Both the position numbers and the translations under genes were made by a program. Shown here one piece after another: positions 11,052 to 28,865 of a stretch of 64,000 nucleotides of DNA. Under the pieces are notes generated by a model. It ran no database searches. It was not told the origin of the DNA and was given only the letters and a program-made list of their open reading frames with translations. The DNA comes from an uncultured Bradyrhizobium sp. Its GTDB lineage: Bacteria > Pseudomonadota > Alphaproteobacteria > Rhizobiales > Xanthobacteraceae. Positions within the stretch are counted from its first letter, which is position 1, and each line of letters opens with the position of its first letter. The stretch spans positions 143,069-207,068 of the forward strand of contig NZ_CANSMR010000014.1 of the NCBI RefSeq assembly GCF_947648125.1, written 5' to 3'.

Positions 11052-11291
11052 CTAGGGCACACGAATTCCCTTGGACACCATGCCTTCGAATACGAATTGA
11101 ATTCCCGCGGATTCAAATGCGTCGCGCATCTTGGTCAAGCTTTTCGGATAAGGTACCGACAGCTCCAACTCGTATCGCGCAATGGACTTTTGTGAGACCC
11201 CCGATCGCTCTGAGAGTTCATGTTGGGTCCAATTAAGCCATGATCGCGCAGCGCGGACTTGGGCAGGAGAAAGATGGGCTATGCGCTCCAT
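11052..11291 (-). CDS. XRE-family helix-turn-helix protein (79 aa)
   Basis: The pattern is LSPAQVRAARSWLNWTQHELSERSGVSQKSIARYE, then VPYPKSLTKMRDAFESAGIQF, a very common alphaproteobacterial short XRE type with an HTH and a trailing helix and strand. ATG 11291 gives the usual compact length; an upstream ATG at 11309 adds six residues. It is divergent from a possible small gene at 11312. Confidence 0.82.
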   Translation of the reverse strand: MERIAHLSPAQVRAARSWLNWTQHELSERSGVSQKSIARYELELSVPYPKSLTKMRDAFESAGIQFVFEGMVSKGIRVP

Positions 11292-11311
11292 AACGTCTCT
11301 TGGCCACACAA

Positions 11312-11536
11312 ATGGTGTCGTCGACAGGCAGATCCAGACTGCCTTGTCTGGAGGACAACACTTACATAGTCAAAGCTTACAATCGAATCCTTGAAAAGAA
11401 TACTGACACTGGCACCCGTTCCAAACTTCATCCAAAAGACCGAGTCCTTCGAACTTTAGCCGAGCGCTTCATCGTCGAGGAGCGTCGCAAGCTCGTGCCG
11501 GCAATGGCGAGCGGCCAAGAACGACCGACACAATAA
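11312..11536 (+). CDS. Possible small hypothetical protein (74 aa)
   Basis: The frame from ATG 11312 reads MVSSTGRSRLPCLEDNTYIV and continues with Lys/Asn-rich codons, then LAERFIVEERRKLVPAM. Base composition in its first half is lower in GC than the neighbours, which could mean foreign DNA or non-coding sequence. No ribosome site or family is evident, so this is a weak call. Confidence 0.3.
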   Translation: MVSSTGRSRLPCLEDNTYIVKAYNRILEKNTDTGTRSKLHPKDRVLRTLAERFIVEERRKLVPAMASGQERPTQ

Positions 11537-12290
11537 GCCGCAGGCTACGCCAGGTTTGCTGATGGCGCTTTTCGTCGAGCAGACCATCGGCTCTTCGGCT
11601 ATTGGATTACGGTGTGGGCTCGCGAGCGAGCTGACGTAATTCCGAACTGACTTGCTCCGGTCGGCCAGTCCCGACGGGCCGGGCAGTGAGCCCGGGTCGC
11701 CAGCGCTGGCCGAGCCGTGGCACCGCAATGCCGCTGGCGCGGCCTCCGGGATCCGGAGGCATGTCCGGTTTGCCCGTAAGTCCTCAAGTCTAGCATCTTT
11801 GGCCACCTAATCGACTAGCCGCGGTGCCTTCAAAGGCCGGCTAAGGACGGGTGTCCGAGCGCTTCGCGGCCATGTCCGACGCCGAACTTGGTCGAGGCGC
11901 TTTTAGTTTTCTGTTAACCACCACTTGATCTGGAGGATGGCGACTTATTCTAAACCAAAACTTGCTGTGTTATATTGCCGGCTCTGACTTGCTAGGCAGA
12001 AGCCTGACGGCTTTCCGGGCGCCGCGAAGAGGGGCGCTCCCAGTTCGGCAAGCGACTCTTGAAGGAGATCGCTTCCCAGCGCGAGGAAGCGGAACACCGC
12101 CACTGCCGCCAAATCGGCGAGGCATCTTGGCTGGTTCGTCCAGCACATCTAATCGTCTGAAATTCTGAAGCCACGCTGACTGCAAGCATGCTTGTGTCTG
12201 TCGTGCCTGAGGACATCCGAGCCAGCTCTCCAGTCATCTCCCGCCCTGTGAAGACGCCGCCTATGTGACGGTCGGTTCGCTGTCGGCACA
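11537..12290. other. Long stretch without a convincing gene
   Basis: Several short frames exist but none has a ribosome site plus plausible composition. A leftward frame (11945-12148) encodes a hydrophobic run, LADLAAVAVFRFLALGSDLL, which could be a remnant. GC-rich inverted repeats near 11690-11760 could fold but lack a T run. Confidence 0.35.
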
Positions 12291-12313
12291 TATAATATGA
12301 TTTATCACATCAT
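12291..12313 (+). promoter_or_regulatory. Candidate -10 element and overlapping dyad before the cassette
   Basis: TATAAT at 12291-12296 matches a sigma-70 -10 box. GTGACG at 12265-12270 is a possible -35, but the 20-base spacing is long. Overlapping it, ATGAT (12297-12301) and ATCAT (12309-12313) form an inverted repeat resembling the palindrome at 10651-10666, so an XRE protein may repress this promoter. Confidence 0.45.
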
Positions 12314-12824
12314 GGAGTTCACTCCGATGCAGTGTATAGGTCATGCGCTAAGCACCTCTACACGCGGATCCCGGCGGCAGCATTCGTGCAGTGCGCGGCC
12401 GGCTCACGCGCCAGCCCACCCGCGAAACTCGGGGGAGGCGCGCATCGAATTTCCGCATCCACTGAGCTGGTGGCGGGTGCGGCCTGTTCACTCGTTCAGA
12501 AATGTGGATGTACTGATCGCGCGACAGTTTCTTCGCAAGGTCGCGATCGCCGGCGAGCCGTTTTGGTACCTGGGCGCAGCCGGCAACGCCGCAGTCGCCA
12601 TGCGCGTAGCCGTACGCATTCAAAGCCAACAGAAACCGAACCTAGTTACACTCGACGTGGCGATGACCGCCGTCTTGTGTATCGCGCTCGCGGGTCACGA
12701 ACCCGCGGCCGTCCTTCTAGCGTCTGCGCTCAAACGACGTTCCGATATCGAGCCTCATTGCGTAGCGCTTTCGGACGGATGGTTAGCTTCACACAGCCGG
12801 ATGCAATTCCTGAGTTCGGCTTGA
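12312..12824 (+). CDS. Cassette paralogue A, unassigned (170 aa)
   Basis: I know no family for this protein, but it is related to two others in this cassette (12944-13429 and 14484-14924). Shared features are W85 with a following small-residue G-N-x-A run (AAGNAAVA), D115-x-x-M-T (LDVAMTAVL), and W157-L near the end (SDGWLAS), separated by 30 and 42 residues. The N-terminal 60 residues are basic and low-complexity, so the true start may be further in. The centre is alpha-helical and mildly hydrophobic. It heads the rightward gene set after the candidate promoter. Confidence 0.5.
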   Translation: MEFTPMQCIGHALSTSTRGSRRQHSCSARPAHAPAHPRNSGEARIEFPHPLSWWRVRPVHSFRNVDVLIARQFLRKVAIAGEPFWYLGAAGNAAVAMRVAVRIQSQQKPNLVTLDVAMTAVLCIALAGHEPAAVLLASALKRRSDIEPHCVALSDGWLASHSRMQFLSSA

Positions 12825-12943
12825 GCGGCATCGCGAACGAGCCGGCACTCGCGTGCGGGCGATCCGCGGCCCGTCCACCACCGCTAGAGCACGCACGCCG
12901 CCATTGTCAGAGCCGTTATCCGCTCAGATGAGGGATATTCTCC

Positions 12944-13429
12944 ATGTACTCGACGATAGCAACATGCCTCACCCCGCCATGTCCTAAGTCCCACCCCAAG
13001 AAGCTTTGGCGCTTTCGGACCGCCACCGAATTCTCTCAAGCCGACGTGTCTGCAGTTCGTTTCGGACTGCAACATACCTCCTTGAAAGATGAACGCTGGG
13101 CTTTCGCACGCGAAGGCCACCCCGCGGACGCAATTTCCATGATGATCGGAGAGTGGCCTGTCGGGCGTATTTCGCACCGCGTTGATGCCATCATGACAGC
13201 GATCGTGCTCGCTGCGCTGATGGGCAGCGCTGCCTCGACACTCGTCGCGTATCACACGATCGCGCAACTTGCCTTTCGGCGACCCAGACTTCGCGAGATC
13301 GCCGCTTCATGGCTGGTTGTCGTAGAAGAACAGGAGAGACGAAGATTCTGGCATCCGACCGCGTCGGATGCCATCCCACGTTCGAGCGACGACGTCCGCT
13401 CACCTTTTCCCGGGCGGAGCTATGCTTGA
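12944..13429 (+). CDS. Cassette paralogue B, unassigned (161 aa)
   Basis: This is a relative of A and C. W52 in DERWAFAREGHPAD, D81-x-x-M-T in RVDAIMTAIVL and W123-L in AASWLVVVEE lie 29 and 42 residues apart, matching its paralogues. The C-terminal 30 residues are basic and unique to it. The stop at 13427-13429 shares a base with the start of the HNH gene, so the two are probably translated together. Function unknown. Confidence 0.6.
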   Translation: MYSTIATCLTPPCPKSHPKKLWRFRTATEFSQADVSAVRFGLQHTSLKDERWAFAREGHPADAISMMIGEWPVGRISHRVDAIMTAIVLAALMGSAASTLVAYHTIAQLAFRRPRLREIAASWLVVVEEQERRRFWHPTASDAIPRSSDDVRSPFPGRSYA

Positions 13430-13764
13430 TGAAATACCGCAAGTACATGTCGAGCGACGCGTGGCGCTTCAACCAAGCCCGACTGCGCGAATTCGAGGCG
13501 GCACGGTTCCAATGCCGGCTGTGCCCTAACACCCGAGATCAGGGCTACGCTCTGGAAGCCCATCACAGGACCTACAAGCGCCTCGGACGCGAACTCGATG
13601 GTGATCTCACGGCGCTCTGCCGGGAATGTCACCAGGGCGTGACATCGATGCTGCGCGCACGTCGCTACGCGTCATCGGCGCCACCTACATCTTCCGACTG
13701 CACACCAGCAATCGCCGATCCGCCTCCCCTGTTTGACCCGTTCGCAATCGGAGCAAAGAAGTGA
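13429..13764 (+). CDS. HNH endonuclease (111 aa)
   Basis: The HNH motif is clear: a first Cys pair in QCRLC, EAHHRTYKRLG with the His pair, and DLTALCRECH with the Asn/His-equivalent end and the second Cys pair. Proteins of this size nick or cut DNA using one metal ion, and in phages they act beside the packaging or recombination genes. ATG 13429 is fixed by the TGATG overlap with gene B; the longer frame from 13309 lies inside B. The C terminus is Pro-rich. Its stop overlaps the next start as GTGA. Confidence 0.85.
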   Translation: MKYRKYMSSDAWRFNQARLREFEAARFQCRLCPNTRDQGYALEAHHRTYKRLGRELDGDLTALCRECHQGVTSMLRARRYASSAPPTSSDCTPAIADPPPLFDPFAIGAKK

Positions 13765-14336
13765 GCATAGAACGCATCGCTCTCAGGCTCGTTGGTGTCG
13801 GACCGATGTTGATGCACTCGTCCCGGCTCGCGGATCCGCTTGATCCAACGACCAAGGCTATCGCTTCGATCACTTCAAAGAGCAAGAAGACGGAAGCTGA
13901 CCACGCGCGTATTGCTGAGTTAGAGTGGCACGGGGGGCTCTGGCTGAGCGAAGGTCGGCCTTGCCTTCCACCCCACTGCATAAATGCGGTCCTGGTGGAC
14001 GGCGCGCGACAGCGCAAGAAAACCGAAATGGCAAGAGCGGCATTTGTCGCAGATGGGCCGTCGATCATCGAATACGACGGTCCCAAGACGATTCCCCAAC
14101 TCTGGGCGGACGAACGCTTCCGCCATCGTGAGATGGTCCGGGTGCGGGATTCACTCTTGGCACGAACCCGTCCATGCTTTCCCCAATGGGGCGCGCGGAT
14201 CACAGCCACCTTTCTCACATCGATGATCAACCGCGGCGAGATCGTCGAGTTTTTCAAGCTCGCGGGGCCTTATGGCCTCGGTGATCACCGTCCCCAGTTC
14301 GGGCGCTTCCTCGTTGAGGATCTCGGACCGGAATAA
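13761..14336 (+). CDS. Unassigned GLGD-motif protein (191 aa)
   Basis: I do not know a function. The protein has LRLVGVGPMLMHSSRLADPLD at the start, AELEWHGGLWLSEGRPCLPP in the middle, ARTRPCFPQWGARITATF, and ends AGPYGLGDHRPQFGRFLVEDL. The glycine-rich GLGDxRPxFGRF end loosely recalls the Gly-rich loop of RAMP-fold proteins (Cas5/Cas7), and similar proteins occur, as I recall, in phage genomes; neither is proof. GTG 13761 overlaps the HNH stop as GTGA, so coupling is likely. A GGCNN pentamer array follows its stop after eight bases. Confidence 0.7.
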   Translation: MSIERIALRLVGVGPMLMHSSRLADPLDPTTKAIASITSKSKKTEADHARIAELEWHGGLWLSEGRPCLPPHCINAVLVDGARQRKKTEMARAAFVADGPSIIEYDGPKTIPQLWADERFRHREMVRVRDSLLARTRPCFPQWGARITATFLTSMINRGEIVEFFKLAGPYGLGDHRPQFGRFLVEDLGPE

Positions 14337-14344
14337 CGCAACAC

Positions 14345-14394
14345 GGCGTGGCGTGGCGGGGCGTGGCCCGGCTACGCATGGCATGGCCCGGCAA
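14345..14394 (+). repeat. GGCNN pentanucleotide array, ten units
   Basis: Ten consecutive in-phase pentamers fit GGCNN: GGCGT twice, GGCGG, GGCGT, GGCCC, GGCTA, then CGCAT (one G to C), GGCAT, GGCCC, GGCAA. It lies between the stop of the GLGD gene and the next gene. The two variable positions differ between units, unlike a simple slippage repeat. Role unknown. Confidence 0.85.
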
Positions 14395-14483
14395 GGACCC
14401 CTTTCGAAAGTAACGAGCTTCGCGAGCGGTACGCGCGCTTGGTGGTGCCGCGTCGCGAGCTCATGCGCAACGGAGTGTTCGGC

Positions 14484-14924
14484 ATGACTCCAAAGCCCCG
14501 GCCCCCTTCAAATGGCGCCGACAAGGAAGATTGGCCCGCGGTTCTGTCTTACTGGCGCACGATTGCCGCTGAAGCATTCGACGACGGACGTCGCGCCCAA
14601 GTCGCCGAATGCATCAGCCGGATCTCCTCCACGTCCCCGGAGTGGCAAGCCGCGATCAACGGCGACGCGGCCGTCGCAGCGGGATTAGTCCTACGCCTGG
14701 AGCCGCCCCCGCGCATATCCGGCGGGGTGGACCTGGTGATGACCATCTTGCTGAACACCGCCTTCGGAGACGCCGGCGCCGCTCTCGTCCTGGCGCATGG
14801 CCTCCGAAAAATGCCTCTCGACCCCCGACTGCGCGCGAGGCTGGCTACCTCGTGGCTGGTCCACAATGTGTGGCTCAAGCATCGCAACCGCCGCAGCGGC
14901 GCTTCGAACCGAGGCGACCAATGA
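14484..14924 (+). CDS. Cassette paralogue C, unassigned (146 aa)
   Basis: This is the third member of the family with A and B: W54 in SPEWQAAINGDAAVAAG, D83-x-x-M-T in GVDLVMTILL, and W124-L in ATSWLVHNVW, spaced 29 and 41 residues. The region before W54 is helical and charged. ATG 14484 has GGAG eight bases upstream; ATG 14463 is an in-frame alternative. The stop overlaps the phosphoesterase start as ATGA. Function unknown. Confidence 0.65.
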   Translation: MTPKPRPPSNGADKEDWPAVLSYWRTIAAEAFDDGRRAQVAECISRISSTSPEWQAAINGDAAVAAGLVLRLEPPPRISGGVDLVMTILLNTAFGDAGAALVLAHGLRKMPLDPRLRARLATSWLVHNVWLKHRNRRSGASNRGDQ

Positions 14925-15694
14925 CAAGAATTCAGGTCATGTCCGACCTTCATGTGGATTTTCCGGGAGCTCGCGACTTTCCACAGCGCGCCGCAGGTGC
15001 CGAACTCGTGCTCATTGCTGGAGACACGTGCGAAGGCCTGGTTCGCGCAATCGAACGGACGCGGATTGCTTATCCGGATGTTGAGATTGTAGCCGTCGCG
15101 GGGAACCACGAGTTCTACGGCCACGCGTTCGGGGAAGAACTCAACGCTGGCCGCGAACGCGCGCGCCAACTCGGCGTGCATCTTCTCGAAAACGAGACCG
15201 TCAGATTCGGTCGTCTGCGGATCATCGGCGCCACCTTGTGGACGGACTACGCACTGCTCGCCGAATCGCTGCGCGGGGCCGCCATGCGGGACGCCTACGA
15301 CACCATGCGTGACCACAAGCGAATAAAGTGGTCCCGTCGACCGTGGCGGAGATTTCGCCCCCAGGAAGCGCGACTGTTGCACTTGCAATCGCGAACCTAC
15401 ATCGAAGCCGAACTCTCCAACGTGTTTGACGGTACAACTATCGTATTGACACACATGGCTCCCACGATCGAAGCGATCGAGCCGCTTTTCCGCGACAGCA
15501 CAATCTCAGCTGCATACGCTTCGAACCTGTTGGCCGTGATCGATCGACACCAGCCGCATTTCTGGATATCCGGCCATACGCACTACAGTATGGATCTACG
15601 TCGCGGTCGTACACGGCTGATATCGAATCCATGCGGATACGCCAACGAGAACCGGCTGTTCGACCCCCTGATGACGATCGAAGTCGGCCCCTGA
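14921..15694 (+). CDS. Calcineurin-like metallophosphoesterase (257 aa)
   Basis: All metal-binding motifs are present in order: D-x-H in VMSDLHVDF, GD in VLIAGDTCEG, GNHE in AVAGNHEFYG, the His in LTHMAP, and GHTH in WISGHTHYSMD. Such enzymes hydrolyse phosphodiesters or phosphomonoesters, including nucleic acids and cyclic nucleotides; substrate unknown here. The start at 14921 overlaps the previous stop (ATGA). The insertion RMRDHKRIKWSRRPWRRFRP-like basic stretch near residues 125-150 could contact nucleic acid. It precedes the FtsH-like gene by 85 bases. Confidence 0.88.
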   Translation: MTRIQVMSDLHVDFPGARDFPQRAAGAELVLIAGDTCEGLVRAIERTRIAYPDVEIVAVAGNHEFYGHAFGEELNAGRERARQLGVHLLENETVRFGRLRIIGATLWTDYALLAESLRGAAMRDAYDTMRDHKRIKWSRRPWRRFRPQEARLLHLQSRTYIEAELSNVFDGTTIVLTHMAPTIEAIEPLFRDSTISAAYASNLLAVIDRHQPHFWISGHTHYSMDLRRGRTRLISNPCGYANENRLFDPLMTIEVGP

Positions 15695-15779
15695 TCGAAG
15701 AACGACCGTAGGTCAGCCAAAGCTGCGTTTGACATATCGAGCGCCGATCGATCCATCCCATTCGACGCGAGCAAACAGC

Positions 15780-18074
15780 ATGAGCCGCAAGATTACCGGT
15801 CCGAGCAAACGGAGCGCATCGAAAACCGTCGTCGTTGGGGCGGCATCGCCGCAGCAACCGCGAAGGCCCCCTCCGGAATCGGTCGCGGGGATGGGTCCGC
15901 TCGAGCTGGCGGCGTACAAGGTCGATTGGCGCGCCTCTTGGCGCTACCGCCGACACGCTGCTGAGGTGAGTGCCGCGCGCGACCACACGCTGCGCGTCAA
16001 GCAGCTGGAGATCGAAGCGCTGGTCGCGACCGACAGGGCCAGGCGCGCCGCGTGTCCGAAGGCCGAACGTCGAGCCGCCATCGCGCGCCTACGGCAGATA
16101 GGGAAGGCGATCGAGCAAAGTCAGGGAGCCGATCGACCTCGTTCCTTTCCGCCTACCGGTCCGGTCATCCCGGCAACGGTTTCCGCCCGCCTCCTGTTTG
16201 CGCGGCTGTTCGACTCACGGCCCAATTTGTGGGAGGCGATCCGATCAGCCGCGCCGGTTGTGATCATCGAGATTTCTGACCCCGAGTTTTACAATCCGGT
16301 AGTCTCAGCCTGGCAAGCCATTCTCTTTGCCGACCCCCGTCGTGTATTGAGGGTAGGTCACGATTCCATCGGTAAGCGCGCCGACTGCGACGCCGTGTGT
16401 ATTGCGGTCGGAGAGCCACCGATTGCGAGGCACCGAGGCACCAACGAGACGGAGGCGCTTGCCGCTCTCTCGCTTGCGCTTCCGATGATCGCAATTTCGC
16501 CGGCCCCGGAGACTCACCTTCCTTCGGCCGTGCTAAGGGCAGCGCAGGAACGCTTGACGTTGCCGCGACTGGATCCAACGGCTGTCGCACGTGCCATTCG
16601 TATTGTGACTGGAAAGCGCTGCCGTGACCTTCTCGATGAAGCCACCGTCGCACGCGTCACGCCGAGCGACCTGATCATTGCCATCCGTTTTGACCGTACG
16701 CCCGCGGAATGCATGGCCGAGCTTCGTCGGCTTGCTGGCGACGAGGCCGCACGCAAGGGTGGGCGCGACATCTCGTTGGACGAACTTTACGGTATGGACG
16801 AAGCGGTCGCGTGGGCTCGCTCGACGATCTGCGATCTCGAAGCGTGGCGCCGCGGTGAAATTGCCTGGTCCGCTTTGGACAGCGGCGCCTGTCTGGTCGG
16901 CCCGCCAGGAACTGGAAAAACGTTGCTTGCACAGTGCTTTTCGCGGGCGGCCGGGCTTCCCATGATCGCTTGTTCGCTGGCCCAGTGGCAAAGCACAGAC
17001 GAGGGGCACCTGGGACACTTGTTGAGAGCAATGAGAAGAGACTTCGACAGCGCTCGCAGTCGTACACCCTGTGTCATGTTCATCGACGAAATCGACTCTT
17101 TCGCCGATCGCAGCAAGGTTCGCCACAGTCATGCAGACTACGTCGTAGAGGTTGTAAATGGCTTTATCGCTCAACTTGACGGCGTGGCCGACCGCGAAGG
17201 GCTGATCTTCCTCGCCGCTTCGAACGACGTCAGCCGGTGCGACCCCGCCATTCTCCGCTCCGGCAGGCTCAATCGCATCATCCGTATTGGCCTTCCGAAC
17301 GTCGAACAACTCGAACGCATGTTTCGCGTCAGACTCGGACAACAGCTCGGCGGCGAAGATCTCAGCGAGATCTGCCTGCTCGCTCTGGGATCGACAGGCG
17401 CTGACGTGGAGAGGATCACGAAGGACGCAGCCCGGTTCGCGCGTCATCAGAACAGGCAGATGCAGCTTGGCGATCTGCGCAGGGCACTCGTGGACGTCGA
17501 AGAGCGCGCTCCCCGCGAAGTTGCCCGCGCTGCCGGTCACGAGGCCGGACACATCCTGATGGAGATTTTGCTGTTCGGCGAACCGGAAAACCTGCACGCC
17601 AACGTCGCCACCTCGGACGGACGGGGCGGAGCGACGATGAGGACCAAGACGCCTCCGTTCGCTGGTACGTACGCGGATTACCATCACCGATTGCAGATCC
17701 TCCTCGCGGGTCGCACCGCCGAGGAAATGCTATTCGGCGACGCGTCGCACGGCGCGGGCGGACGACGCGGATCCGACTTGCAGCAGGCAACGGCGTTCGC
17801 CGCCGCGATGGTGGCCTCGCTGGGACTTGCCGGCCCGAGGCACCTTCTCTTCCTGGCGCCGGCCGAGGACACCGACGAACTGCTCGCCTATGCAGACGTG
17901 CGCGCGACGGCGCACTCCGAACTGGAGAAGGCGGCGCAGGCTTGCCGCGCGACATTGATGATGCACAACGCCGCTCTCGGCGAGATCTCAGCGAGCTTGT
18001 TGCTGACAGGACGGATCGATGGTGTGACCGCGGCCGCAATCATCGACGCCCATCGCGAAGCGATGGGAGCGTAA
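15780..18074 (+). CDS. Soluble FtsH-like AAA ATPase and zinc metalloprotease (764 aa)
   Basis: The C-terminal two thirds match FtsH: Walker A GPPGTGKT near residue 374, Walker B CVMFIDEIDSF near 431-441, the arginine-finger region LRSGRLNRI, then an M41 peptidase with HEAGH near 587 and the third zinc-ligand Asp in GSDLQQATAF near 666. It should unfold and degrade proteins using ATP and zinc. Unlike housekeeping FtsH it has no membrane segments; a 330-residue N-terminal extension, charged and helical at first, probably selects substrates. ATG 15780 is used; a TTG frame extends to 15729, and TTGACA at 15731 could instead be a -35 box. The adjacent genes suggest a role within a mobile element. 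Confidence 0.88.
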   Translation: MSRKITGPSKRSASKTVVVGAASPQQPRRPPPESVAGMGPLELAAYKVDWRASWRYRRHAAEVSAARDHTLRVKQLEIEALVATDRARRAACPKAERRAAIARLRQIGKAIEQSQGADRPRSFPPTGPVIPATVSARLLFARLFDSRPNLWEAIRSAAPVVIIEISDPEFYNPVVSAWQAILFADPRRVLRVGHDSIGKRADCDAVCIAVGEPPIARHRGTNETEALAALSLALPMIAISPAPETHLPSAVLRAAQERLTLPRLDPTAVARAIRIVTGKRCRDLLDEATVARVTPSDLIIAIRFDRTPAECMAELRRLAGDEAARKGGRDISLDELYGMDEAVAWARSTICDLEAWRRGEIAWSALDSGACLVGPPGTGKTLLAQCFSRAAGLPMIACSLAQWQSTDEGHLGHLLRAMRRDFDSARSRTPCVMFIDEIDSFADRSKVRHSHADYVVEVVNGFIAQLDGVADREGLIFLAASNDVSRCDPAILRSGRLNRIIRIGLPNVEQLERMFRVRLGQQLGGEDLSEICLLALGSTGADVERITKDAARFARHQNRQMQLGDLRRALVDVEERAPREVARAAGHEAGHILMEILLFGEPENLHANVATSDGRGGATMRTKTPPFAGTYADYHHRLQILLAGRTAEEMLFGDASHGAGGRRGSDLQQATAFAAAMVASLGLAGPRHLLFLAPAEDTDELLAYADVRATAHSELEKAAQACRATLMMHNAALGEISASLLLTGRIDGVTAAAIIDAHREAMGA

Positions 18075-18077
18075 ACG

Positions 18078-18218
18078 ATGAAGAATGGGCGAACGAAATT
18101 CGCCGGGTCGCCGCCTGCCGATGAGGACCGGCGCACATGGCAATCTTGGCGGCTGCGTTGGCGTACTACTGGGGCCTCGCCGGACGATCTGCAAAAGCGC
18201 ATGGGGGCAGAGAAGTGA
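18078..18218 (+). CDS. Coupled 46-residue protein
   Basis: ATG 18078 follows the protease stop by three bases, and the TGA at 18216-18218 overlaps a GTG start at 18215 (GTGA), the same coupling used elsewhere in this cassette. The product is polar and basic with aromatic residues (RRTWQSWRLRWRTTG) and a helical end SPDDLQKRMGAEK. No family is known. Position between stop and start on both sides is the main evidence. Confidence 0.6.
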   Translation: MKNGRTKFAGSPPADEDRRTWQSWRLRWRTTGASPDDLQKRMGAEK

Positions 18219-18601
18219 GCCGAACGAAAGGCTCATCATCGGACACCGTGCCGAAATGCCCGCGCGTTGGCGCGCGGCCGAACCCCGAGGACTGGGGGAT
18301 GGACGAGTTGCTGACGCTGCCGGAGGCTGCGGAACTTTGTTGGCCCGAAGGCCCATTGACCGTCACAAGCCTCAGGACGGCGGTACGTCACCGCCAACTC
18401 GCGGTCGCCGTGGTTGCTGGCAAATTTCTGACCACGAGACGACAACTCGCGAAAATGGCCTCCTGTCAAATCCTTGGAGCGGCCGAAACGCCTGAGATTG
18501 CTGCGAAAAATGGGCGCCTCCTCTCGACTGGTGAGGCCCGGACGCTTCTCGATTCAGAGCTGGAAAGGCTGCGCCCTCCCCGTAATCCACATCCCCGGTA
18601 G
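18215..18601 (+). CDS. Excisionase-like HTH protein
   Basis: The segment DELLTLPEAAELCWPEGPLTVTSLRTAVRHRQLAVAVVAGKFLTTRRQLAKM matches the layout of MerR-like excisionase and DNA-binding HTH domains: an N-terminal LTLPEAA helix pair and a wing ending in an L-T-T-R-x-x-L stretch. It lies just before the integrase, as Xis genes often do, and would direct excision. GTG 18215 is preferred because it overlaps the previous stop and has GGGGCAGAG before it; ATG 18137 is a longer alternative. Confidence 0.6.
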   Translation: MSRTKGSSSDTVPKCPRVGARPNPEDWGMDELLTLPEAAELCWPEGPLTVTSLRTAVRHRQLAVAVVAGKFLTTRRQLAKMASCQILGAAETPEIAAKNGRLLSTGEARTLLDSELERLRPPRNPHPR

Positions 18602-18686
18602 CCCAGCTCACATTGCTCAGGAGCCCGATCAATGAGATTGGACACGAGCAAGTTACGGTCACTCAGCAAGAGAAAGGAACCAACAG

Positions 18687-20174
18687 ATGAAGATCCGTCC
18701 CGTTCGCGCAGCACGAGAACTCCGTGGTAGCGAGAATCCGCTGCTTGATTTCGCCTCGGCACTCAATCGGGGTACTGGCGATGGTGCCAGTGCATTCGAT
18801 GGGCGTCTCGAATTGCGCGCGCCTCGTCGCTCGCAAAAGAGTCGGCGCCGCAAAAAGCTCGGCATCTACTACGTCGTGAGCCGCGAGGGTGCGGTGAGCA
18901 CCGGCATCCGTGAGAATGAGCCCGACCGCGCGCAAAGGTATCTCGATGGCTACCGGGCACGTAGGCTGAATGAGACGCTCGGCCGCGTCCTGCCCGGCTC
19001 GCTCACGTTCGCCACGGTCATCGCGGACCACGTCGACAACGTGCGCCGGTCTGCAAAGACGCCAGGTCAGCGCCGGCGCGCGGCAGCCGTCGAATACCAG
19101 TCAGTGGTGCTGAACCGGTTCTTCGGAACCAAGACCCTTTCCGAATACCGGATGCAGATGTCGATCGACTTCAAGAATCAGTACATCGACGAACGCAATG
19201 CCTTCTACGATGCCAATCCCGATCGCCACCGAAAGGATCCCGAAAGCACGGCCACGCAGCTGTTGCGGCTGCTGAGGTACGCCATCCGTTCATATCCCGA
19301 ACGTCACGGCTACTTCTGGGTATTGAACATTCACGTTCCAAAACCGGGCCCGAAAAAGCCGGCGCGCTGGCTGCGTCGGCAGGAGGTCGCTCGTCTCCTG
19401 CTCGCGTGCATGGGTTACAGGTGGGACCACGAACGCGGCGACTGGATGACGAAAGAGGTCATTCGCGCCGACGGCACCACCACCATAACCCGCAAGGTCG
19501 CGCCCGAGAATCGAATTATGGGCGAGTACCTCTCGCGCGTAATTCGCTTCATAACCAAAACAGGGACCAGGCACGATGTAATGCTCTCGATGGCATGGGG
19601 CAGCCGTATGAGATTGGCCTGCATCGTTGCAAACGCCGACGGAAGCGGCTGGATCCACCGCCGCGGACTCGCCGAGATTGACACCACGAAGGCCAGGCCA
19701 TCGACCGAGATCGTTGACGACTTGAAGTGCCTCATCCGCGCCTGGGGCCGCCAGGATGGTTACATCCTGCCCGACGGCACCATTAGCAAGCAGCCCAAGC
19801 ATAAGTATCTGATCCGTCCCCCGGGCGGTGGCAACTACAAAACCTACCTGAACGTTCAGTTCCGCAAGCTCTGCAACAACGCAGGTCTCTCTCGCGACGT
19901 CACCATCCATTCGCTGAAGCACACCGCTGTAAGCTGGGCCTATCAGCGCGGCGTTTCATTGGCAGCAGCGGAGCAAATGCTTGGCACCTCGGCTGAAACG
20001 CTCCTGGCTCATTACGTGCACTGGGGTCACGACAGCCGTATAAGCGCGAAGGACGAGTTCAACAACTACGCCTCGCGCCGGAAGCTGCGCGCCATTCATC
20101 ACCATGACCCCGAGCCTGATGACCGCGTCCGGCCTTATGACCGTCCCTTCAAGGGTCGGACGCGGCGTAGGTAG
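18687..20174 (+). CDS. Tyrosine recombinase (integrase)
   Basis: The C-terminal catalytic domain shows the first Arg in KTGTRHDVML near residue 294, a box-II H-x-x-K-H in IHSLKHTAVSW near 408 (Lys in place of the usual Arg), and the nucleophile Tyr in LLAHYVHW near 443. The N-terminal half holds a core-binding region with a long basic stretch. It should integrate or excise the element it belongs to. AAGGA lies upstream of ATG 18687. The tail is rich in His, Asp and Arg. A bidirectional terminator follows 20 bases after the stop. Confidence 0.85.
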   Translation: MKIRPVRAARELRGSENPLLDFASALNRGTGDGASAFDGRLELRAPRRSQKSRRRKKLGIYYVVSREGAVSTGIRENEPDRAQRYLDGYRARRLNETLGRVLPGSLTFATVIADHVDNVRRSAKTPGQRRRAAAVEYQSVVLNRFFGTKTLSEYRMQMSIDFKNQYIDERNAFYDANPDRHRKDPESTATQLLRLLRYAIRSYPERHGYFWVLNIHVPKPGPKKPARWLRRQEVARLLLACMGYRWDHERGDWMTKEVIRADGTTTITRKVAPENRIMGEYLSRVIRFITKTGTRHDVMLSMAWGSRMRLACIVANADGSGWIHRRGLAEIDTTKARPSTEIVDDLKCLIRAWGRQDGYILPDGTISKQPKHKYLIRPPGGGNYKTYLNVQFRKLCNNAGLSRDVTIHSLKHTAVSWAYQRGVSLAAAEQMLGTSAETLLAHYVHWGHDSRISAKDEFNNYASRRKLRAIHHHDPEPDDRVRPYDRPFKGRTRRR

Positions 20175-20194
20175 CTTGGGCGCTCGCCACCATT

Positions 20195-20240
20195 AAAAGC
20201 GTCGCTTCATCCGGCTCTTGCCGGACGCGGCGACGCTTTT
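20195..20240. terminator. Bidirectional terminator after the integrase
   Basis: AAAAGCGTCGC (20195-20205) and GCGACGCTTTT (20230-20240) are perfect 11-base inverted arms, giving a T run on either strand. A second hairpin CCGGC-TCTT-GCCGG (20211-20224) sits in the loop. It ends integrase transcription and shields the next gene. Confidence 0.85.
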
Positions 20241-20290
20241 CGTCCGCTGCCTGCGCTTTCGCGCCCCCGCATCGCCTGAGAGCCCAATCC

Positions 20291-21805
20291 TTGTTTTCAA
20301 AACACGAGAGCCTTCCATTGTCTTCGCTGGCCGGAATTATCGCACCACATTTTGTTCGAACTGGTGTCCTCACACGAGAAGACCTGCTCGATCTCTTTGA
20401 TCCCGCCATTTGGCGTAACCACTGCGCCACGGACGTCACCCCGCTCCGCGGACCCGCGCTCTGCGCTATGATCGCGTGCTGTGGAGCTTCGATGGCAGAG
20501 ATCACCCGTATCAAATGCTCCCATTGGCTGAACGATCATAGAGACCAGGTCGAACTGAGTGGCGGTCACCACCGCGCCTCGCGCACGTCCCCTGTCATGG
20601 CGATCGCCAAGGTCGTCATCGATCGTTACCACAAGGCAGCGAAACGCCAGGCTGGCGTCGACCACCTGTTCGTTAGCCGAAACGGCCGCCCGATCGACGT
20701 CAATGGGATACTCCAACAGCTCAACTGGTTAGCGAGAAGTGGCGGCCTTCCCTGCAAAAGCCTCGGAATGGCGCTCCAACACGCATTCGAAGGTTGGGCC
20801 AAGGCCGGTGGCGAAGCTATGGAGCGCGCTCTTACCGGTTGCCTGCAGAGGTCTTGGATGGAGCCAGTCCCGCCGCTCGAGTTGCTTGATAAGCAGAGCT
20901 TTCTCGCGGAGGCTCATCCTTTAGGAAGGTTCGACCGTGAGATGCTCAAGTGGGTTGGCCCCGCGGCGCGTCTGCATCCTGATCCGCACTTTCCACGTCT
21001 GTCACGTGAGGCGAGGAGAGACCTCGAGCCCGCCTTGAATATCCCTGGGTCTTCGTATCCGCTCGAACTGCGAGAGGCGGTGAACTCGGCATTATCGTTA
21101 GGAAAACACCCCAACGATATTGCCACACATTACGGCATCAGCACCAAATACGTTCTTGACCTGCGCGACGGAAACGCTTCGCAGGCGTCTACCCTTCTCA
21201 CTTTGCGGACAGTTTCGGTTCAGAAAATTCTTGCCGCCCGCCTGCGCGCGGCTCCGGGCTCGAAAGCAAGTGATTTGCAGGCTTGGATGCATGACGAGCA
21301 CGGCGTTGCGTTGACCCGCGCGTCAATCAGCAAGTTTGCAAAGAAGAGAAACATCGATCTGCCGCCAACGCCCCGAGGCCGCCATCTGCGAAGATACGAA
21401 CCCCTGCTCCGGGAAGAGTTAACCCGAAATCCAGATCAAGATACCCTTGCGCTCGCTACATGGCTTCGCCGCGAGCACGGCATCGTGGCCCGCGACTCCG
21501 CGATTTACCAGTTTCTGCGCAAGCGTGGCGTGCTTGGGCCGCGACAGCATTTACTCGTTGGACATGAAGAGGCGCTCGGAGAATTATTCAACCTTCGGCC
21601 TACGATTACCTACAAGGAAATCGTGGCATGGCTGCGTGTGGAGCGCGGTGTGTACGCCACCACCGAGGAGCTGATGAGGGCGATGAAGAAGGCGGGCATT
21701 CGCAGGCCGTCGTACCGACCTCGCCCACGCCGGAAGAAAAGACAAGCCCGACTCAGACCATCGGCGATCGCTCTTGTGCCGTTGCAGCGAGCTCAAGCAA
21801 GTTGA
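20291..21805 (+). CDS. Degenerate tyrosine-recombinase-like protein with HTH repeats (504 aa)
   Basis: Residues 50-175 follow the integrase fold, but the catalytic positions are altered: the box-I Arg is Ser67 (CGASMAEI), and the H-x-x-R of box II reads M160-A-L-Q163 (GMALQHAFEGW). I see no nucleophile Tyr in context. Residues 260-475 contain an HTH (DIATHYGISTKYVLDL) and three repeats of a W-x-x-x-E-H-G type, beginning LQAWMHDEHGV, LATWLRREHGI and IVAWLRVERGV, each followed by a K-rich helix, like transposase winged helices. It may be a DNA-binding regulator or recombination partner. The start is a weak TTG. Confidence 0.6.
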   Translation: MFSKHESLPLSSLAGIIAPHFVRTGVLTREDLLDLFDPAIWRNHCATDVTPLRGPALCAMIACCGASMAEITRIKCSHWLNDHRDQVELSGGHHRASRTSPVMAIAKVVIDRYHKAAKRQAGVDHLFVSRNGRPIDVNGILQQLNWLARSGGLPCKSLGMALQHAFEGWAKAGGEAMERALTGCLQRSWMEPVPPLELLDKQSFLAEAHPLGRFDREMLKWVGPAARLHPDPHFPRLSREARRDLEPALNIPGSSYPLELREAVNSALSLGKHPNDIATHYGISTKYVLDLRDGNASQASTLLTLRTVSVQKILAARLRAAPGSKASDLQAWMHDEHGVALTRASISKFAKKRNIDLPPTPRGRHLRRYEPLLREELTRNPDQDTLALATWLRREHGIVARDSAIYQFLRKRGVLGPRQHLLVGHEEALGELFNLRPTITYKEIVAWLRVERGVYATTEELMRAMKKAGIRRPSYRPRPRRKKRQARLRPSAIALVPLQRAQAS

Positions 21806-22013: not shown

Positions 22014-22512
22014 TCATGGTGATGTCGAAGGGATGAAGGCGTGTATCGAGCGCGAACGCTTCTGAAGGTGCTGCTGGTACGCGTCTTTCGCCCTGGTCGG
22101 GCCGAAGATCAGATTCCAGCTGTGATTGGACAAAATACTTGGGGTCACGGCGAATTGGTGCTTGGCCAAGAGCGCATCTCCGAACGCCTGCTGGCCCGCG
22201 CCTGGGATTCCGGGCCGCAGCCAATTGGCGTTCGGAACGTCGACAGGGCGAACGATGTGAACGTCGGACACGTCGGCGATATGAAGCGCGGTGAGAACGT
22301 GCGCCATGGTGTCGAGCGCTTTGAAGGCCTTGTGAACCGCGACTTCGAGGATCGCGGTCGCTGGATCAAGAGCGCAATACACGACGCGAGCGCCTTTGCT
22401 GTTACACCTGGAATGCGCCTTTGCCACTGTTCCAGGTCGACGCAAAGCGCGCTTGGTCGAGGCGCCAAGCGATGAGCTTGCCGCCACCCAATGGCTCTAC
22501 AGGAGGCGTCAT
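22014..22512 (-). pseudogene. RES-domain toxin gene with two frameshifts
   Basis: The gene begins at ATG 22512, overlapping the antitoxin stop as ATGA, and reads MTPPVEPLGGGKLIAWRLDQ then ARFASTWNSGKGAFQV before a TAA. The rest, from NSKGARVVYCALDPATAILEV to SWNLIFGPTRAKDAY, continues in another frame. The normal RES protein has a GGRW-type segment at the break, so a short deletion is inferred. Near the C terminus a second shift occurs: the family-like end EAFALDTRLHPF is in yet another frame. RES toxins degrade NAD+. This copy should be inactive unless frameshifting is programmed, which nothing suggests. Confidence 0.75.
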
Positions 22513-22985
22513 GCATAGACGCCGTATGCGAGGCGTGTGAGGTATTGTTCAACCAGTTCAATGCCCGCCGGCGTGGCAAGAAGGTCGATCGGACGGCGCT
22601 GGTCGAAACCGATGGCCGGACGTTCGAGCCACTGCTCTGCCTCTTCCTGCGAGCCGAACACGTCCGTGGCCTTGGCCAGGATTTCGGCAAACTTCCAGGT
22701 CCGCCCACTTTGCTCCTGGCTGAGCGGCTTTTCCGGAGCATCCTTGCGTCGTTGAAAGGTGCGGAGGCTCATTCCGAAGGCTTTTTCTAGCGAGTCCGTT
22801 TGAATGAAGAGGAGGTGACTGACGAAGTGGGTCAGCGCGGAGCCAGGCAGGCCGTCCAGCAGTAGGTCGTGGGCGTCGAGGGTGCTTGTGATGCGGCGGG
22901 ACAGGATCCGCGGCCCGCCGAGCAAATCGGCCACTTTCTGGAGATCATTGCTTGGCCCCTTTGGGGCCAGTTTCTCAGCAGTCAT
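22509..22985 (-). CDS. Xre/MbcA/ParS-type antitoxin (intact)
   Basis: The protein has the antitoxin layout: an N-terminal HTH-like half (ADLLGGPRILSRRITSTLDAH to AFGMSLRTFQRRKD) and the C-terminal toxin-binding part GSQEEAEQWLERPAIGFDQRRPIDLLATPAGIELVEQYLTRLAYG, which is the conserved DUF2384 signature. It would bind and neutralise a RES toxin and repress its own promoter. ATG 22985 is chosen over a longer frame starting at 23036 that has no support. The stop overlaps the broken toxin gene by four bases. Confidence 0.85.
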   Translation of the reverse strand: MTAEKLAPKGPSNDLQKVADLLGGPRILSRRITSTLDAHDLLLDGLPGSALTHFVSHLLFIQTDSLEKAFGMSLRTFQRRKDAPEKPLSQEQSGRTWKFAEILAKATDVFGSQEEAEQWLERPAIGFDQRRPIDLLATPAGIELVEQYLTRLAYGVYA

Positions 22986-23002
22986 AGGTCGCCTCGCGAT
23001 GA

Positions 23003-23404
23003 GTGTCGTATTATAAGCGTAATTTGTCGCAATCAATCAAGCGTACACTGGTCCGCGGGACCGACCACGGCGGACTGACCGGCCAGGCCATCACCGATCG
23101 GTTGCGCGTTGCCGACCGCGTCTCCGCCGCCCTCATCAAGTACAGGCACCTCAGATCGATCACCGTGGTCAACCCTATCAATCGGTGCCCGACCGTGGTG
23201 GTGCCTCTCCGGGAAGTCGAACGGTTCGAACGGGAGTTCGTGTCGCTGTTCGCCCTCGCCAAGCTGCGGGGGCGACATTTCATGGCGGTCAAGAAGGAGC
23301 TTCAGCACGCCGGCGTGAAGCCGGTGTTCAATCCGAGAAAGATCGGGGCGACGTTCTATCGGAGGGCGGGGGTCCTGAGAGCCGAATGCCTTAATGGGGA
23401 TTAA
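23003..23404 (+). CDS. Conserved-looking hypothetical fragment
   Basis: The segment SITVVNPINRCPTVVVPLREVERFEREFVSLFALAKLRGRHFMAVKKELQHAG and the end FNPRKIGATFYRRAGVLRAE look like a real, mostly helical DNA-interacting C terminus. The N-terminal 35 residues overlap the antitoxin promoter and look arbitrary, so this is probably a truncated gene. I recall similar C termini in larger recombination-related proteins but cannot name a family. Confidence 0.35.
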   Translation: MSYYKRNLSQSIKRTLVRGTDHGGLTGQAITDRLRVADRVSAALIKYRHLRSITVVNPINRCPTVVVPLREVERFEREFVSLFALAKLRGRHFMAVKKELQHAGVKPVFNPRKIGATFYRRAGVLRAECLNGD

Positions 23405-25683: not shown

Positions 25684-25731
25684 ATGACTTATGAGCTATT
25701 TGGTGTGCATTTGGCGGGAGATCATTCGTGA
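25684..25731 (+). CDS. 15-residue leader ORF, copy 1
   Basis: ATG 25684, preceded by TTAGGAAAAAC, encodes MTYELFGVHLAGDHS and its TGA overlaps the GTG start at 25728 (GTGA). It could couple or regulate translation of the regulator gene. Short length makes the call tentative. Confidence 0.4.
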   Translation: MTYELFGVHLAGDHS

Positions 25732-26900
25732 TCAAACCGCATCAAACGAATCCGCTTTTCGGCAACGACAGGGCCCTTGATCGGCTCACCGAGGGTCTCC
25801 GATCTGGTAATGGTCGCGGCAGGAGAAAGCGGCGAATGAGTCGAGCCTATCTCGGCGACCCATCGAAGGCAAACCGGCTGCATGCGGCTCGGAAAAAAGC
25901 TGGTTTCAAGTCCGGCCGCGCGGCCGCGCTCCACTTCGGATGGTCGGTTGCCACTTATCGCGCCCATGAGACAGCGACGCGTTATCTCCACGACGAGACG
26001 GCCAAGATCTATGCGTCTGCGTTCATGGTTAACACCGAATGGCTCCTCCGTGGGTTGGGCGCTGGCCCGGCCGTAGATCCAGTCCGCGCCACCCAATTCA
26101 AGAACAAGATCGAGCGCAAGGCCGAACTGGCAAAGAGCGATCCAGCTGCGTCGTCCGGCCGGCGGCTTCGGCTTGCGCGACGCCTGGCTGGCTTCCGCTC
26201 AACGACTGCCGCAGCCGCGACGACCGGGTTGATGCGCACCACCCTCAGTGCGCACGAGACCGGCCAAAACTCCCTCTCCGAAAAAATGGCGCTGCTGTAC
26301 GCCGAGGCCTTCCGCGTCAGTGCGGATTGGTTAACAACAGGGAAACTACCTTCTGGCTACCCGTGGGATATCGAGCAGCAATTGCCGTCGATCATCGAGA
26401 CATATGGCGAATTGGATAAAGACGCCATGGAGGCTCTAAGTCACCTTTTGCCCGCGACCAGCCTGCCGCCTGAAGAGGTTCGCAAGGTCAGCCCCCCGGT
26501 TCGGCCGAAAGCCGAAAAGGACATCAAGACGGATATGGTCCCTGAGATATCCGCCCGGCATCTATTCCGGGGCCTGGTATCCGGAGACTTGGCTGATGTG
26601 CCCCACGAGCACATGTGGTCGTTTCCGCATCGGTATGTGACGGAAGTCCTCGGTGGAAATCTGCCGACGACCGTAATTGTGGCGCTTGGGTCGCGAGTGA
26701 AAGAACTTCACCGCGGCGATCGCATCATTGTCGATATGTCTGCCCGAGTAGCCGTGGCAGGGGGAACTTTCGTTTTGGTCAATCAGCACGGAAACTTCGA
26801 TCTGATCGAACCCAAAGAGGGCGAGGGTCTTGTTTCAGTCCCCCCGCAATCGGGGTGGAGGATCTTCGGAAAGAGGATCGGACGAGTCACGACGGGATGA
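25728..26900 (+). CDS. Double-HTH regulator with S24-like C terminus, copy 1
   Basis: Two related HTH units occur: SKANRLHAARKKAGFKSGRAA with an ATYRAHE helix (about 45-110), and GRRLRLARRLAGFRSTTAAA with TLSAHETG (about 140-205); both are followed by an aromatic-Trp-Leu helix (TEWLLRGL, ADWLTTGK). The C-terminal 110 residues resemble the LexA/CI S24 fold, with GDRIIVDMS and GGTFVLVNQHG, but the usual S-M-x-P around the nucleophile and the catalytic Lys are not seen, so self-cleavage is unlikely. It is probably a phage- or element-type repressor. GTG 25728 has GGGAG before it and overlaps a leader stop; ATG 25836 with AGGAG is an equally good start. Confidence 0.75.
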   Translation: MIKPHQTNPLFGNDRALDRLTEGLRSGNGRGRRKRRMSRAYLGDPSKANRLHAARKKAGFKSGRAAALHFGWSVATYRAHETATRYLHDETAKIYASAFMVNTEWLLRGLGAGPAVDPVRATQFKNKIERKAELAKSDPAASSGRRLRLARRLAGFRSTTAAAATTGLMRTTLSAHETGQNSLSEKMALLYAEAFRVSADWLTTGKLPSGYPWDIEQQLPSIIETYGELDKDAMEALSHLLPATSLPPEEVRKVSPPVRPKAEKDIKTDMVPEISARHLFRGLVSGDLADVPHEHMWSFPHRYVTEVLGGNLPTTVIVALGSRVKELHRGDRIIVDMSARVAVAGGTFVLVNQHGNFDLIEPKEGEGLVSVPPQSGWRIFGKRIGRVTTG

Positions 26901-27648: not shown

Positions 27649-27696
27649 ATGACTTATGAGCTATTTGGTGTGCATTTGGCGGGAGATCATTCGTGA
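27649..27696 (+). CDS. 15-residue leader ORF, copy 2
   Basis: Identical to the leader at 25684-25731, again overlapping the downstream GTG start by four bases. Confidence 0.38.
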   Translation: MTYELFGVHLAGDHS

Positions 27697-28865
27697 TCAA
27701 ACCGCATCAAACGAATCCGCTTTTCGGCAACGACAGGGCCCTTGATCGGCTCACCGAGGGTCTCCGATCTGGTAATGGTCGCGGCAGGAGAAAGCGGCGA
27801 ATGAGTCGAGCCTATCTCGGCGACCCATCGAAGGCAAACCGGCTGCATGCGGCTCGGAAAAAAGCTGGTTTCAAGTCCGGCCGCGCGGCCGCGCTCCACT
27901 TCGGATGGTCGGTTGCCACTTATCGCGCCCATGAGACAGCGACGCGTTATCTCCACGACGAGACGGCCAAGATCTATGCGTCTGCGTTCATGGTTAACAC
28001 CGAATGGCTCCTCCGTGGGTTGGGCGCTGGCCCGGCCGTAGATCCAGTCCGCGCCACCCAATTCAAGAACAAGATCGAGCGCAAGGCCGAACTGGCAAAG
28101 AGCGATCCAGCTGCGTCGTCCGGCCGGCGGCTTCGGCTTGCGCGACGCCTGGCTGGCTTCCGCTCAACGACTGCCGCAGCCGCGACGACCGGGTTGATGC
28201 GCACCACCCTCAGTGCGCACGAGACCGGCCAAAACTCCCTCTCCGAAAAAATGGCGCTGCTGTACGCCGAGGCCTTCCGCGTCAGTGCGGATTGGTTAAC
28301 AACAGGGAAACTACCTTCTGGCTACCCGTGGGATATCGAGCAGCAATTGCCGTCGATCATCGAGACATATGGCGAATTGGATAAAGACGCCATGGAGGCT
28401 CTAAGTCACCTTTTGCCCGCGACCAGCCTGCCGCCTGAAGAGGTTCGCAAGGTCAGCCCCCCGGTTCGGCCGAAAGCCGAAAAGGACATCAAGACGGATA
28501 TGGTCCCTGAGATATCCGCCCGGCATCTATTCCGGGGCCTGGTATCCGGAGACTTGGCTGATGTGCCCCACGAGCACATGTGGTCGTTTCCGCATCGGTA
28601 TGTGACGGAAGTCCTCGGTGGAAATCTGCCGACGACCGTAATTGTGGCGCTTGGGTCGCGAGTGAAAGAACTTCACCGCGGCGATCGCATCATTGTCGAT
28701 ATGTCTGCCCGAGTAGCCGTGGCAGGGGGAACTTTCGTTTTGGTCAATCAGCACGGAAACTTCGATCTGATCGAACCCAAAGAGGGCGAGGGTCTTGTTT
28801 CAGTCCCCCCGCAATCGGGGTGGAGGATCTTCGGAAAGAGGATCGGACGAGTCACGACGGGATGA
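27693..28865 (+). CDS. Double-HTH regulator with S24-like C terminus, copy 2
   Basis: The encoded 390 residues are identical to those of copy 1: two HTH units, then the S24-like region lacking the catalytic Lys. Two copies with the same operators would double the repressor dose. ATG 27801 is the alternative start. If the duplication is an assembly artefact, this gene does not exist separately. Confidence 0.72.
   Translation: MIKPHQTNPLFGNDRALDRLTEGLRSGNGRGRRKRRMSRAYLGDPSKANRLHAARKKAGFKSGRAAALHFGWSVATYRAHETATRYLHDETAKIYASAFMVNTEWLLRGLGAGPAVDPVRATQFKNKIERKAELAKSDPAASSGRRLRLARRLAGFRSTTAAAATTGLMRTTLSAHETGQNSLSEKMALLYAEAFRVSADWLTTGKLPSGYPWDIEQQLPSIIETYGELDKDAMEALSHLLPATSLPPEEVRKVSPPVRPKAEKDIKTDMVPEISARHLFRGLVSGDLADVPHEHMWSFPHRYVTEVLGGNLPTTVIVALGSRVKELHRGDRIIVDMSARVAVAGGTFVLVNQHGNFDLIEPKEGEGLVSVPPQSGWRIFGKRIGRVTTG

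Follow-up and report, generated by a model that had tools for sequence, protein, structure and literature searches.

A VIPR locus with a conserved guide that probably reads a protein motif of phage tails, set in an AAA-protease operon of Bradyrhizobium

Introduction

What joins a set of small proteins, an HNH nuclease, a metallophosphoesterase (MPE) and a protease resembling FtsH in one compact cassette is the question raised by a 64,000-nt stretch of DNA from an uncultured Bradyrhizobium sp. (Xanthobacteraceae; assembly GCF_947648125.1, contig NZ_CANSMR010000014.1, positions 143,069 to 207,068 of the forward strand). The whole stretch, hereafter the window, is part of an 8.57-Mb genome, and positions below are those of the window. 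A first-pass annotation made from the letters alone had described these genes, together with one for a "GLGD protein", as a cassette of no recognised kind that might be a mobile element with its own proteolysis or a defence cassette. Here, we report that the GLGD protein is by its sequence a RAMP-type Vipr protein and that the gap behind its gene holds a vrRNA guide tract, both of which that annotation had missed. The cassette thus belongs to a known kind, VIPR; what is new is a fixed, motif-reading guide and an operon with an AAA protease.

VIPR systems, first described in 2026, combine a RAMP protein with vrRNAs of alternating GGY/NN units (9-16 units), in which the NN pairs find DNA with one base skipped between pairs and independently of a protospacer adjacent motif, and the target is repressed (PMC13142463). 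The skipped bases were already remarked to tend towards wobble positions, the NN dinucleotides were reported as hypervariable, though outside the definition given in the abstract, and systems with a single vrRNA were mentioned; types III and V, the sole types with predicted nucleases, are enriched in defence islands (PMC13142463). Our literature search found no further VIPR paper, and the terms HNH, protease, phosphoesterase, Ig-like and Bradyrhizobium are absent from the main text of that one.

Results

The cassette contains a Vipr protein and a guide tract

Searched against the PDB, the profile of the GLGD protein family matched one solved structure well, 36pp chain D (E=7.4e-72), and the window protein alone matched the same chain, 36pp_D "SUSP1 Vipr protein", over residues 6-187 (E=3.2e-18). 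Directly behind the gene, at 14345-14392, lies a tract reading GGC gt GGC gt GGC gg GGC gt GGC cc GGC ta CGC at GGC at GGC cc GGC aa, in which one of the ten units (CGC) is degenerate. The Vipr match and the GGY/NN tract directly behind the gene together indicate a VIPR locus with an HNH nuclease. As a control, the tract scan gave 0 tracts in 1.66 Mb of Markov-resampled DNA of the bacterial family.

Relatives carry a tract in the equivalent position, and its usual core is gt gg gt cc ga at/ag ac/at/gt cc gt/tt. The automatic scan found it in 22 of the 26 family loci described below, and recognisable remnants were seen by eye in the other four; in a 27th locus (L391), on a plasmid of B. japonicum USDA 123, the tract is likewise clear. 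B. barranii 1S5 is another named relative that carries the locus. Behind the tract, a hairpin with z<-3 was predicted in 10 of 16 relatives; a MAFFT alignment of the vrRNA tails was too poor for counting covariation. The vipr gene is uncommon, being matched in 25 of 391 family genomes at E<=1e-15 and in 7 of 397 genomes of the order at E<=1e-10, some of the matches partial. For vipr and the genes of the HNH protein, the protease and the MPE, nonsynonymous divergence (dN 0.20-0.42) is far below synonymous divergence (dS 1.3-3.1, some values near saturation).

The gene neighbourhood recurs across the bacterial family

Twenty-six family loci with a full vipr were compared: the window, one named genome, nine genome loci reached through the protease, two plasmids, and 13 loci reached through vipr alone (L331-L343). 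L049, L050 and L051 hardly differ from one another. Not counted among the 26 are the partial vipr of G169 (L346), that of G139 and the plasmid locus L391, added later. The first-pass annotation had proposed a search for conserved gene order, holding that genes found only singly would speak against a unit, and such an order was found: a divergent xre gene, then HNH, Vipr, vrRNA, a small protein (s), phosphoesterase and AAA protein. An HNH gene adjoins vipr in 25 of the 26 loci, as a vap-type accessory gene would; an s gene is found in 21, a phosphoesterase in 18, an AAA protein in 24 (FtsH-like in 18, Lon-like in 7) and the divergent XRE gene in 19. Among the 13 loci reached through vipr alone, the counts are 13 for HNH, 10 for the guide, 10 for s, 9 for the phosphoesterase and 11 for the AAA protein. 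Since the neighbourhood recurs across these loci, a chance gene cluster was rejected, and the sequences show a conserved operon.

The eight closest relatives of the protease in the family sample share 45-47% identity with it, and six of them stand in the order HNH, GLGD, s, (phosphoesterase), protease; of the others, L046 has the module without HNH-GLGD and L048 is cut by the contig end. The nearest named match is in Bradyrhizobium erythrophlei GAS478 (62%), in a scan that possibly omitted near kin of the window.

Related arrangements were seen elsewhere. In L054, L056, L058 and L061, a family of about 300 aa, two members of which gave no Pfam match when scanned, stands between xre and s, in the place of HNH-Vipr; it is perhaps another recognition module for the s-MPE-AAA operon. 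In GAS478, the stretch just upstream of HNH-Vipr (L032, 641-7601) holds a repeated set of Cys-rich small proteins (CEICG..) together with another phosphoesterase and a Lon-like AAA protein, and looks like a string of related modules. On the viral contigs L124, L125 and L130, a phosphoesterase lies within a few kb of a protease relative, and L130 (1198-3138) holds a divergent xre, a DUF6634 gene, a phosphoesterase and an FtsH-like gene in the bacterial module order, without Vipr. On an Acidiphilium plasmid (L074, 619-2708), an ATP-binding protease relative accompanies multiubiquitin and ThiF-like genes, resembling a bacterial ubiquitin-like operon.

The family guides fit a He_PIG motif in antisense

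Guides were decoded by reverse-complementing their NN letters and arranging these as codons under the 1-nt skip rule (PMC13142463). This gave SSTGL[IM]SGTPTA[FL]AVV for L067, SLSTGV[IM]SGTPTV for L060, PSSTGT[IM]SGTP for L223 and [FL]G[IM][IM]YGTPTT for the window guide, in which Y is alternatively a stop. We took this motif to be the signature of the He_PIG Ig-like domain (Pfam PF05345) and then tested the reading. When the decoded peptides were padded with X and scanned against Pfam, they gave no He_PIG match, being perhaps too short.

A codon-dinucleotide profile was built from 62 He_PIG sites that had not been selected by the core and came from the same contigs as the core hits (see below). 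Read in antisense, this profile fits all of the 20 family guides tested, four of them shortened to 5-6 units, with log-odds of 5.9 to 14.4, and none of 6 guides from outside the family. The sense reading was rejected, scoring below the antisense one in all 20. When the units within each guide were permuted, the observed fit was reached in 0-36 of 2000 permutations, for the window guide in 1 of 2000. In a further comparison with viral tracts of at least 7 units from 52 loci, 154 unique viral tracts scored 4.2 on average and 7.6 at most, while the 16 family guides of at least 8 units scored 7.9-18.1, the window guide 11.4.

The consensus core, which occurs verbatim in the guide of L060, matched 98 viral stretches with the bases skipped, compared to 1 for a reversed-letter control. 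An open-frame check, which covered 80 of the 98 stretches (82 sites) in a first pass and all of them (100 sites) in full, found an opposite-strand open frame no shorter than 80 codons at 100 of 100 sites. This frame then necessarily reads TGV[IM]SGTPT; an LPxG-type He_PIG context lies upstream in 86 of the 100, and one site without it (L268) is in a baseplate protein. Furthermore, the changes between guides are mostly conservative when read as He_PIG: I to L, V to T or I, and Ser TCN to AGY. Together, our data indicate, at the level of sequence, that the family guides read He_PIG.

Outside the family, three loci with HNH-Vipr (L068, L344, L345) have guides (L068, L206/L344, L210/L345) that do not read He_PIG, and the s-MPE-AAA operon was not found in the stretch compared, L068 having an FtsH-like gene on the other strand. 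That loci without a He_PIG guide are also without the module hints that the fixed guide and the s-MPE-AAA module belong together.

Phage tail proteins are candidate targets

Matches to a He_PIG peptide were found in 84 phage records, of which Gordonia phages make up 61; among the 60 of the 84 that were listed, 56 carry the annotation major tail or tail fibre protein. In a test of ten He_PIG proteins from viruses, six match PHROG tail families. The window genome holds no site for the window's guide with 3 or fewer mismatches. In Rhizobium phage RHph_X2_24, the motif ends a 706-aa protein encoded four genes after the tape measure gene. At this site, guides L205 and L226 match 16 of 18 letters, the next best site within 16 kb matching 12, and 13 of the 16 guides have no better site there.

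The protease is soluble and FtsH-like, and the adjoining phosphoesterase keeps its metal ligands

The catalytic residues of the protease (K380, D436, E437, R493, R496, H587, E588, H591, D666) are invariant in 22 sequences. Its best 19-residue hydropathy window is 1.47, and those of 21 relatives range over 1.26-1.97, compared to 2.35-2.62 for two membrane FtsH controls; the earlier description as a soluble FtsH-like protease is thereby borne out. Against the NCBIfam FtsH equivalog the protein scored 151.5 bits, with a cut-off of 600. Canonical FtsH was rejected on this score and on the absence of a segment of membrane strength, and by its sequence the protease is FtsH-like and soluble, not an FtsH orthologue. 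A structure model (mean predicted local distance difference test, pLDDT, 76) matches FtsH structures. In the model, residues 131-326 alternate strands and helices and may form a degenerate second AAA-like domain; searching their sequence against the PDB brought no significant match. In phage records, at most 54% of the protease length was matched, the AAA/M41 part only. Queried as a single sequence, the protease matched no viral contig; an alignment query gave 142 viral relatives, of which the best 80 were used. An alternative TTG start of the gene at 15729 is possible.

The metal ligands of the phosphoesterase (D9, H11, D35, N62, H63, H178, H219, H221) are invariant in 17 sequences, and the protein matches the PADLOC candidate defence family PDC-S10 (E=2.8e-10). 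The s proteins gave nothing significant against Pfam and PDB; the model of s3 is all-helical and of low confidence (mean pLDDT 48.6).

Gene content of the window

Of the genes listed in Table 1 (11052-21805), all but the divergent XRE gene lie on the + strand. Each of the rightward genes listed by the first-pass annotation is an open reading frame on this strand, and its calls of HNH (E=2.7e-4), phosphoesterase (E=7e-44), AAA (E=1e-25) with Peptidase_M41 (E=1e-10) and integrase (phrog_1, E=2e-19) held in Pfam and PHROG. The three small proteins that it had called related indeed form one family by hidden Markov model (HMM), and its "inactive" recombinase shows weak XerC similarity only, neither an HxxR nor a Tyr motif being seen by eye in the 504-aa protein. 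Two points need correction: five tight junctions are counted, not six (s2/HNH TGATG, HNH/Vipr GTGA, s3/MPE ATGA, protease to orf46 +3 nt, orf46/excisionase GTGA), and on the left the conserved unit extends to the divergent XRE gene, beyond the limit given earlier.

Table 1. Features of the cassette in the window
Feature	Position	Strand	Evidence
Small XRE-type helix-turn-helix regulator, putative cassette regulator	11052..11309	-	family HMM; PADLOC Control_protein E=2e-8
s1, small "WWR" protein	12297..12824	+	family HMM and alignments; start uncertain, homology from ~12357
s2, paralogue of s1/s3	12944..13429	+	family HMM and alignments
HNH nuclease, putative vap nuclease of VIPR	13429..13764	+	Pfam HNH E=2.7e-4, slightly above cut-off
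Vipr protein (RAMP homologue; "GLGD protein")	13761..14336	+	PDB 36pp_D match
vrRNA guide tract, ten GGY/NN units	14345..14392	+	tract scan
Putative vrRNA 3' tail/spacer	14393..14483	+	folding z=+0.66, stable hairpin absent
s3, small protein conserved beside MPE/AAA	14484..14924	+	family HMM and alignment
Metallophosphoesterase (MPE)	14921..15694	+	phrog_1649 E=6.9e-44
Soluble FtsH-like AAA + M41 zinc protease, 330-aa N-terminal region	15780..18074	+	Pfam AAA/Peptidase_M41
46-residue open reading frame (orf46)	18078..18218	+	open reading frame; no conservation shown
Excisionase-like DNA-binding protein	18215..18601	+	clusters with L047 and L048 proteins; family HMM
Tyrosine integrase	18687..20174	+	phrog_1 E=1.5e-19; H-S-L-K-H replaces HxxRH
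Degenerate recombinase-like protein, 504 aa	20291..21805	+	weak XerC match, NCBIfam E=5.6e-7

No tRNA gene was found in the window. PADLOC assigned no defence system among 10 cassette and 10 flanking proteins, its matches (such as IetA and PDC-S10) being at the domain or candidate level only. To the right of the cassette, a gene pair on the - strand (22014-23036) resembles by eye a RES-type toxin with an Xre-type antitoxin partner, and two 390-aa open reading frames on the + strand (25728-26900 and 27693-28865) have identical weak RmrA matches (E=6.1e-4); their identical length and match suggest that they are probably a duplicated gene.

Discussion

A hard-wired, motif-level anti-phage VIPR is probably the best reading of the cassettes in this family. 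Under this reading, Vipr would bind one vrRNA, whose NN dinucleotides would locate DNA with one target base skipped between them. The guide would be fixed as the antisense reading of the codon-1/2 letters of the He_PIG motif STG-V/I-I/L-SGTPT, and since the skipped base would fall on the wobble position, DNA encoding the motif would be recognised whatever its synonymous third bases. As phage tail proteins often contain the motif, such a guide could act as a germline-encoded, motif-level phage sensor. We infer that the guide is transcribed and bound and that phages are its natural target; target binding would then lead to silencing by Vipr alone, or to cutting with the HNH protein. The s-MPE-AAA-protease operon under the divergent XRE gene would serve as a coupled response or support module, in which the phosphoesterase and the protease have their presumed roles. 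We lean somewhat towards the more specific view that a clade froze a VIPR guide into an innate receptor reading He_PIG of phage tails, coupled to HNH and to a swappable AAA effector (M41 or Lon-like). Of the two purposes first considered for the cassette, a defence cassette thus fits best; a mobile element with its own proteolysis, though possible, is the less general explanation.

Several results weigh against an anti-phage VIPR, here and together with the alternatives below. No perfectly matching phage of the host family has been shown, and the He_PIG site of RHph_X2_24 is not the best one for guides L063, L065 and L229. The consensus core has one 2-mismatch site in the window genome and single ones in seven other VIPR-positive genomes. 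Nor is target avoidance significant, He_PIG being present in 3 of 23 VIPR-positive and 80 of 359 other family genomes (p=0.43). The 23 are the 25 genomes with a vipr match minus G760 and G761, taken as the same sample in the He_PIG count, and include G139 and G169 with a partial vipr only.

The window copy itself might be decaying, with intact proteins and a guide RNA that has lost its function, which we consider rather unlikely. Besides the CGC unit and diverged NN letters, its tail folds into no stable hairpin, and it has no exact target: the full 20 letters of its guide have 0 exact viral matches under the 1-nt-skip reading, and a shortened core has 7, none in a He_PIG protein. Its best He_PIG site among the loci compared matches 18 of 20 letters, and two sites outside He_PIG reach 19 of 20 (in loci selected by the shortened core). 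Nevertheless, all of its reading frames are open and constrained, and its guide fits He_PIG better than every one of the viral tracts. Within the variant, the window copy may be one that has diverged or weakened.

An unlikely alternative regards s-MPE-FtsH as a separate module belonging to a mobile element, with VIPR as a passenger; for example, the protease could remove an XRE repressor and so free the integrase, in the manner of ImmA/ImmR. Indeed, s-MPE-FtsH with divergent XRE recurs without HNH-Vipr in L046, L054, L056, L058, L061, L062 and L064, so the operon looks modular, and in the window an excisionase and an integrase follow. A gene matching any of three integrase queries was found in 11 of the 26 vipr loci, and the window's own excisionase and integrase families in 5. 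Against this alternative, 15 of the loci gave no match to the three queries, and a Lon-like AAA protein can replace FtsH while Vipr and s stay. The search for direct repeats at the ends, which the first-pass annotation had proposed, gave no convincing att repeats, only short ones including a 20-nt pair at 12861/22905 (85%).

It is improbable that the target is instead a bacterial adhesin, with VIPR silencing large surface proteins with Ig repeats, whether these are the host's own or brought in on mobile DNA. He_PIG occurs in 83 of 382 family genomes, and exact consensus sites exist in the genomes of the relatives G737 and G722. In G737 (G737:C1:6028274-6031249, L386), seven exact consensus-guide matches lie in tandem He_PIG repeats with a 273-nt period, within a 1234-aa surface-like protein beside transporter-like genes that resemble type I secretion by eye; G737 is outside the 25 genomes with a vipr match. 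On the other hand, the window genome contains no He_PIG, and 20 of the 23 VIPR-positive genomes are without He_PIG at E<=0.001, so there is usually no gene of the host's own for VIPR to control.

Finally, a coincidental He_PIG reading, the NN letters being kept by common descent or RNA folding, is very improbable: the guides are related and G+C-rich, and hence the tests are not independent of one another, but unit permutation destroys the fit, the viral tracts score below the family guides, the core far outnumbers its control in matches, and the guide changes are mostly conservative in the target reading.

If an anti-phage, motif-level VIPR is the true reading, a guide of about ten dinucleotides would read an amino-acid motif and not one DNA sequence, which is feasible because VIPR skips the wobble base. 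To our knowledge, these would be the first nucleic-acid guides evolutionarily kept to recognise DNA by the amino acids that it encodes. This would be an innate-like form of RNA-guided recognition, going beyond the known tendency of VIPR to skip wobble bases, and a protease/phosphoesterase partner module for VIPR is indicated.

Comparison with known systems

Among known systems, the protease resembles FtsH/M41 in keeping AAA Walker A/B, the second region of homology, the HEAGH zinc motif and the downstream Asp, but differs in its long N-terminal region. FtsH has the pore motif F-V-G, in place of which the window protease has W. Its AAA domain also resembles that of IetA, the AAA ATPase of the anti-phage system IetAS (PADLOC E=1e-22), but the match is confined to this domain and reaches 74 bits against an NCBIfam cut-off of 510 bits. 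The RAMP proteins of class 1 CRISPR (Cas7 and kin) are distant kin of Vipr, and their pairing is contiguous whereas that of VIPR is gapped (PMC13142463); no cas genes were noticed in the cassette, where no systematic search for them was made. The closest likeness is to VIPR itself, in the Vipr RAMP protein, the ten-unit GGY/NN tract, the adjoining predicted nuclease and the chromosomal setting (PMC13142463). From published VIPR, whose guides are hypervariable, the family loci differ in NN letters that are conserved across the family and constrained to spell a protein motif, and in being embedded in an s-MPE-AAA protease operon.

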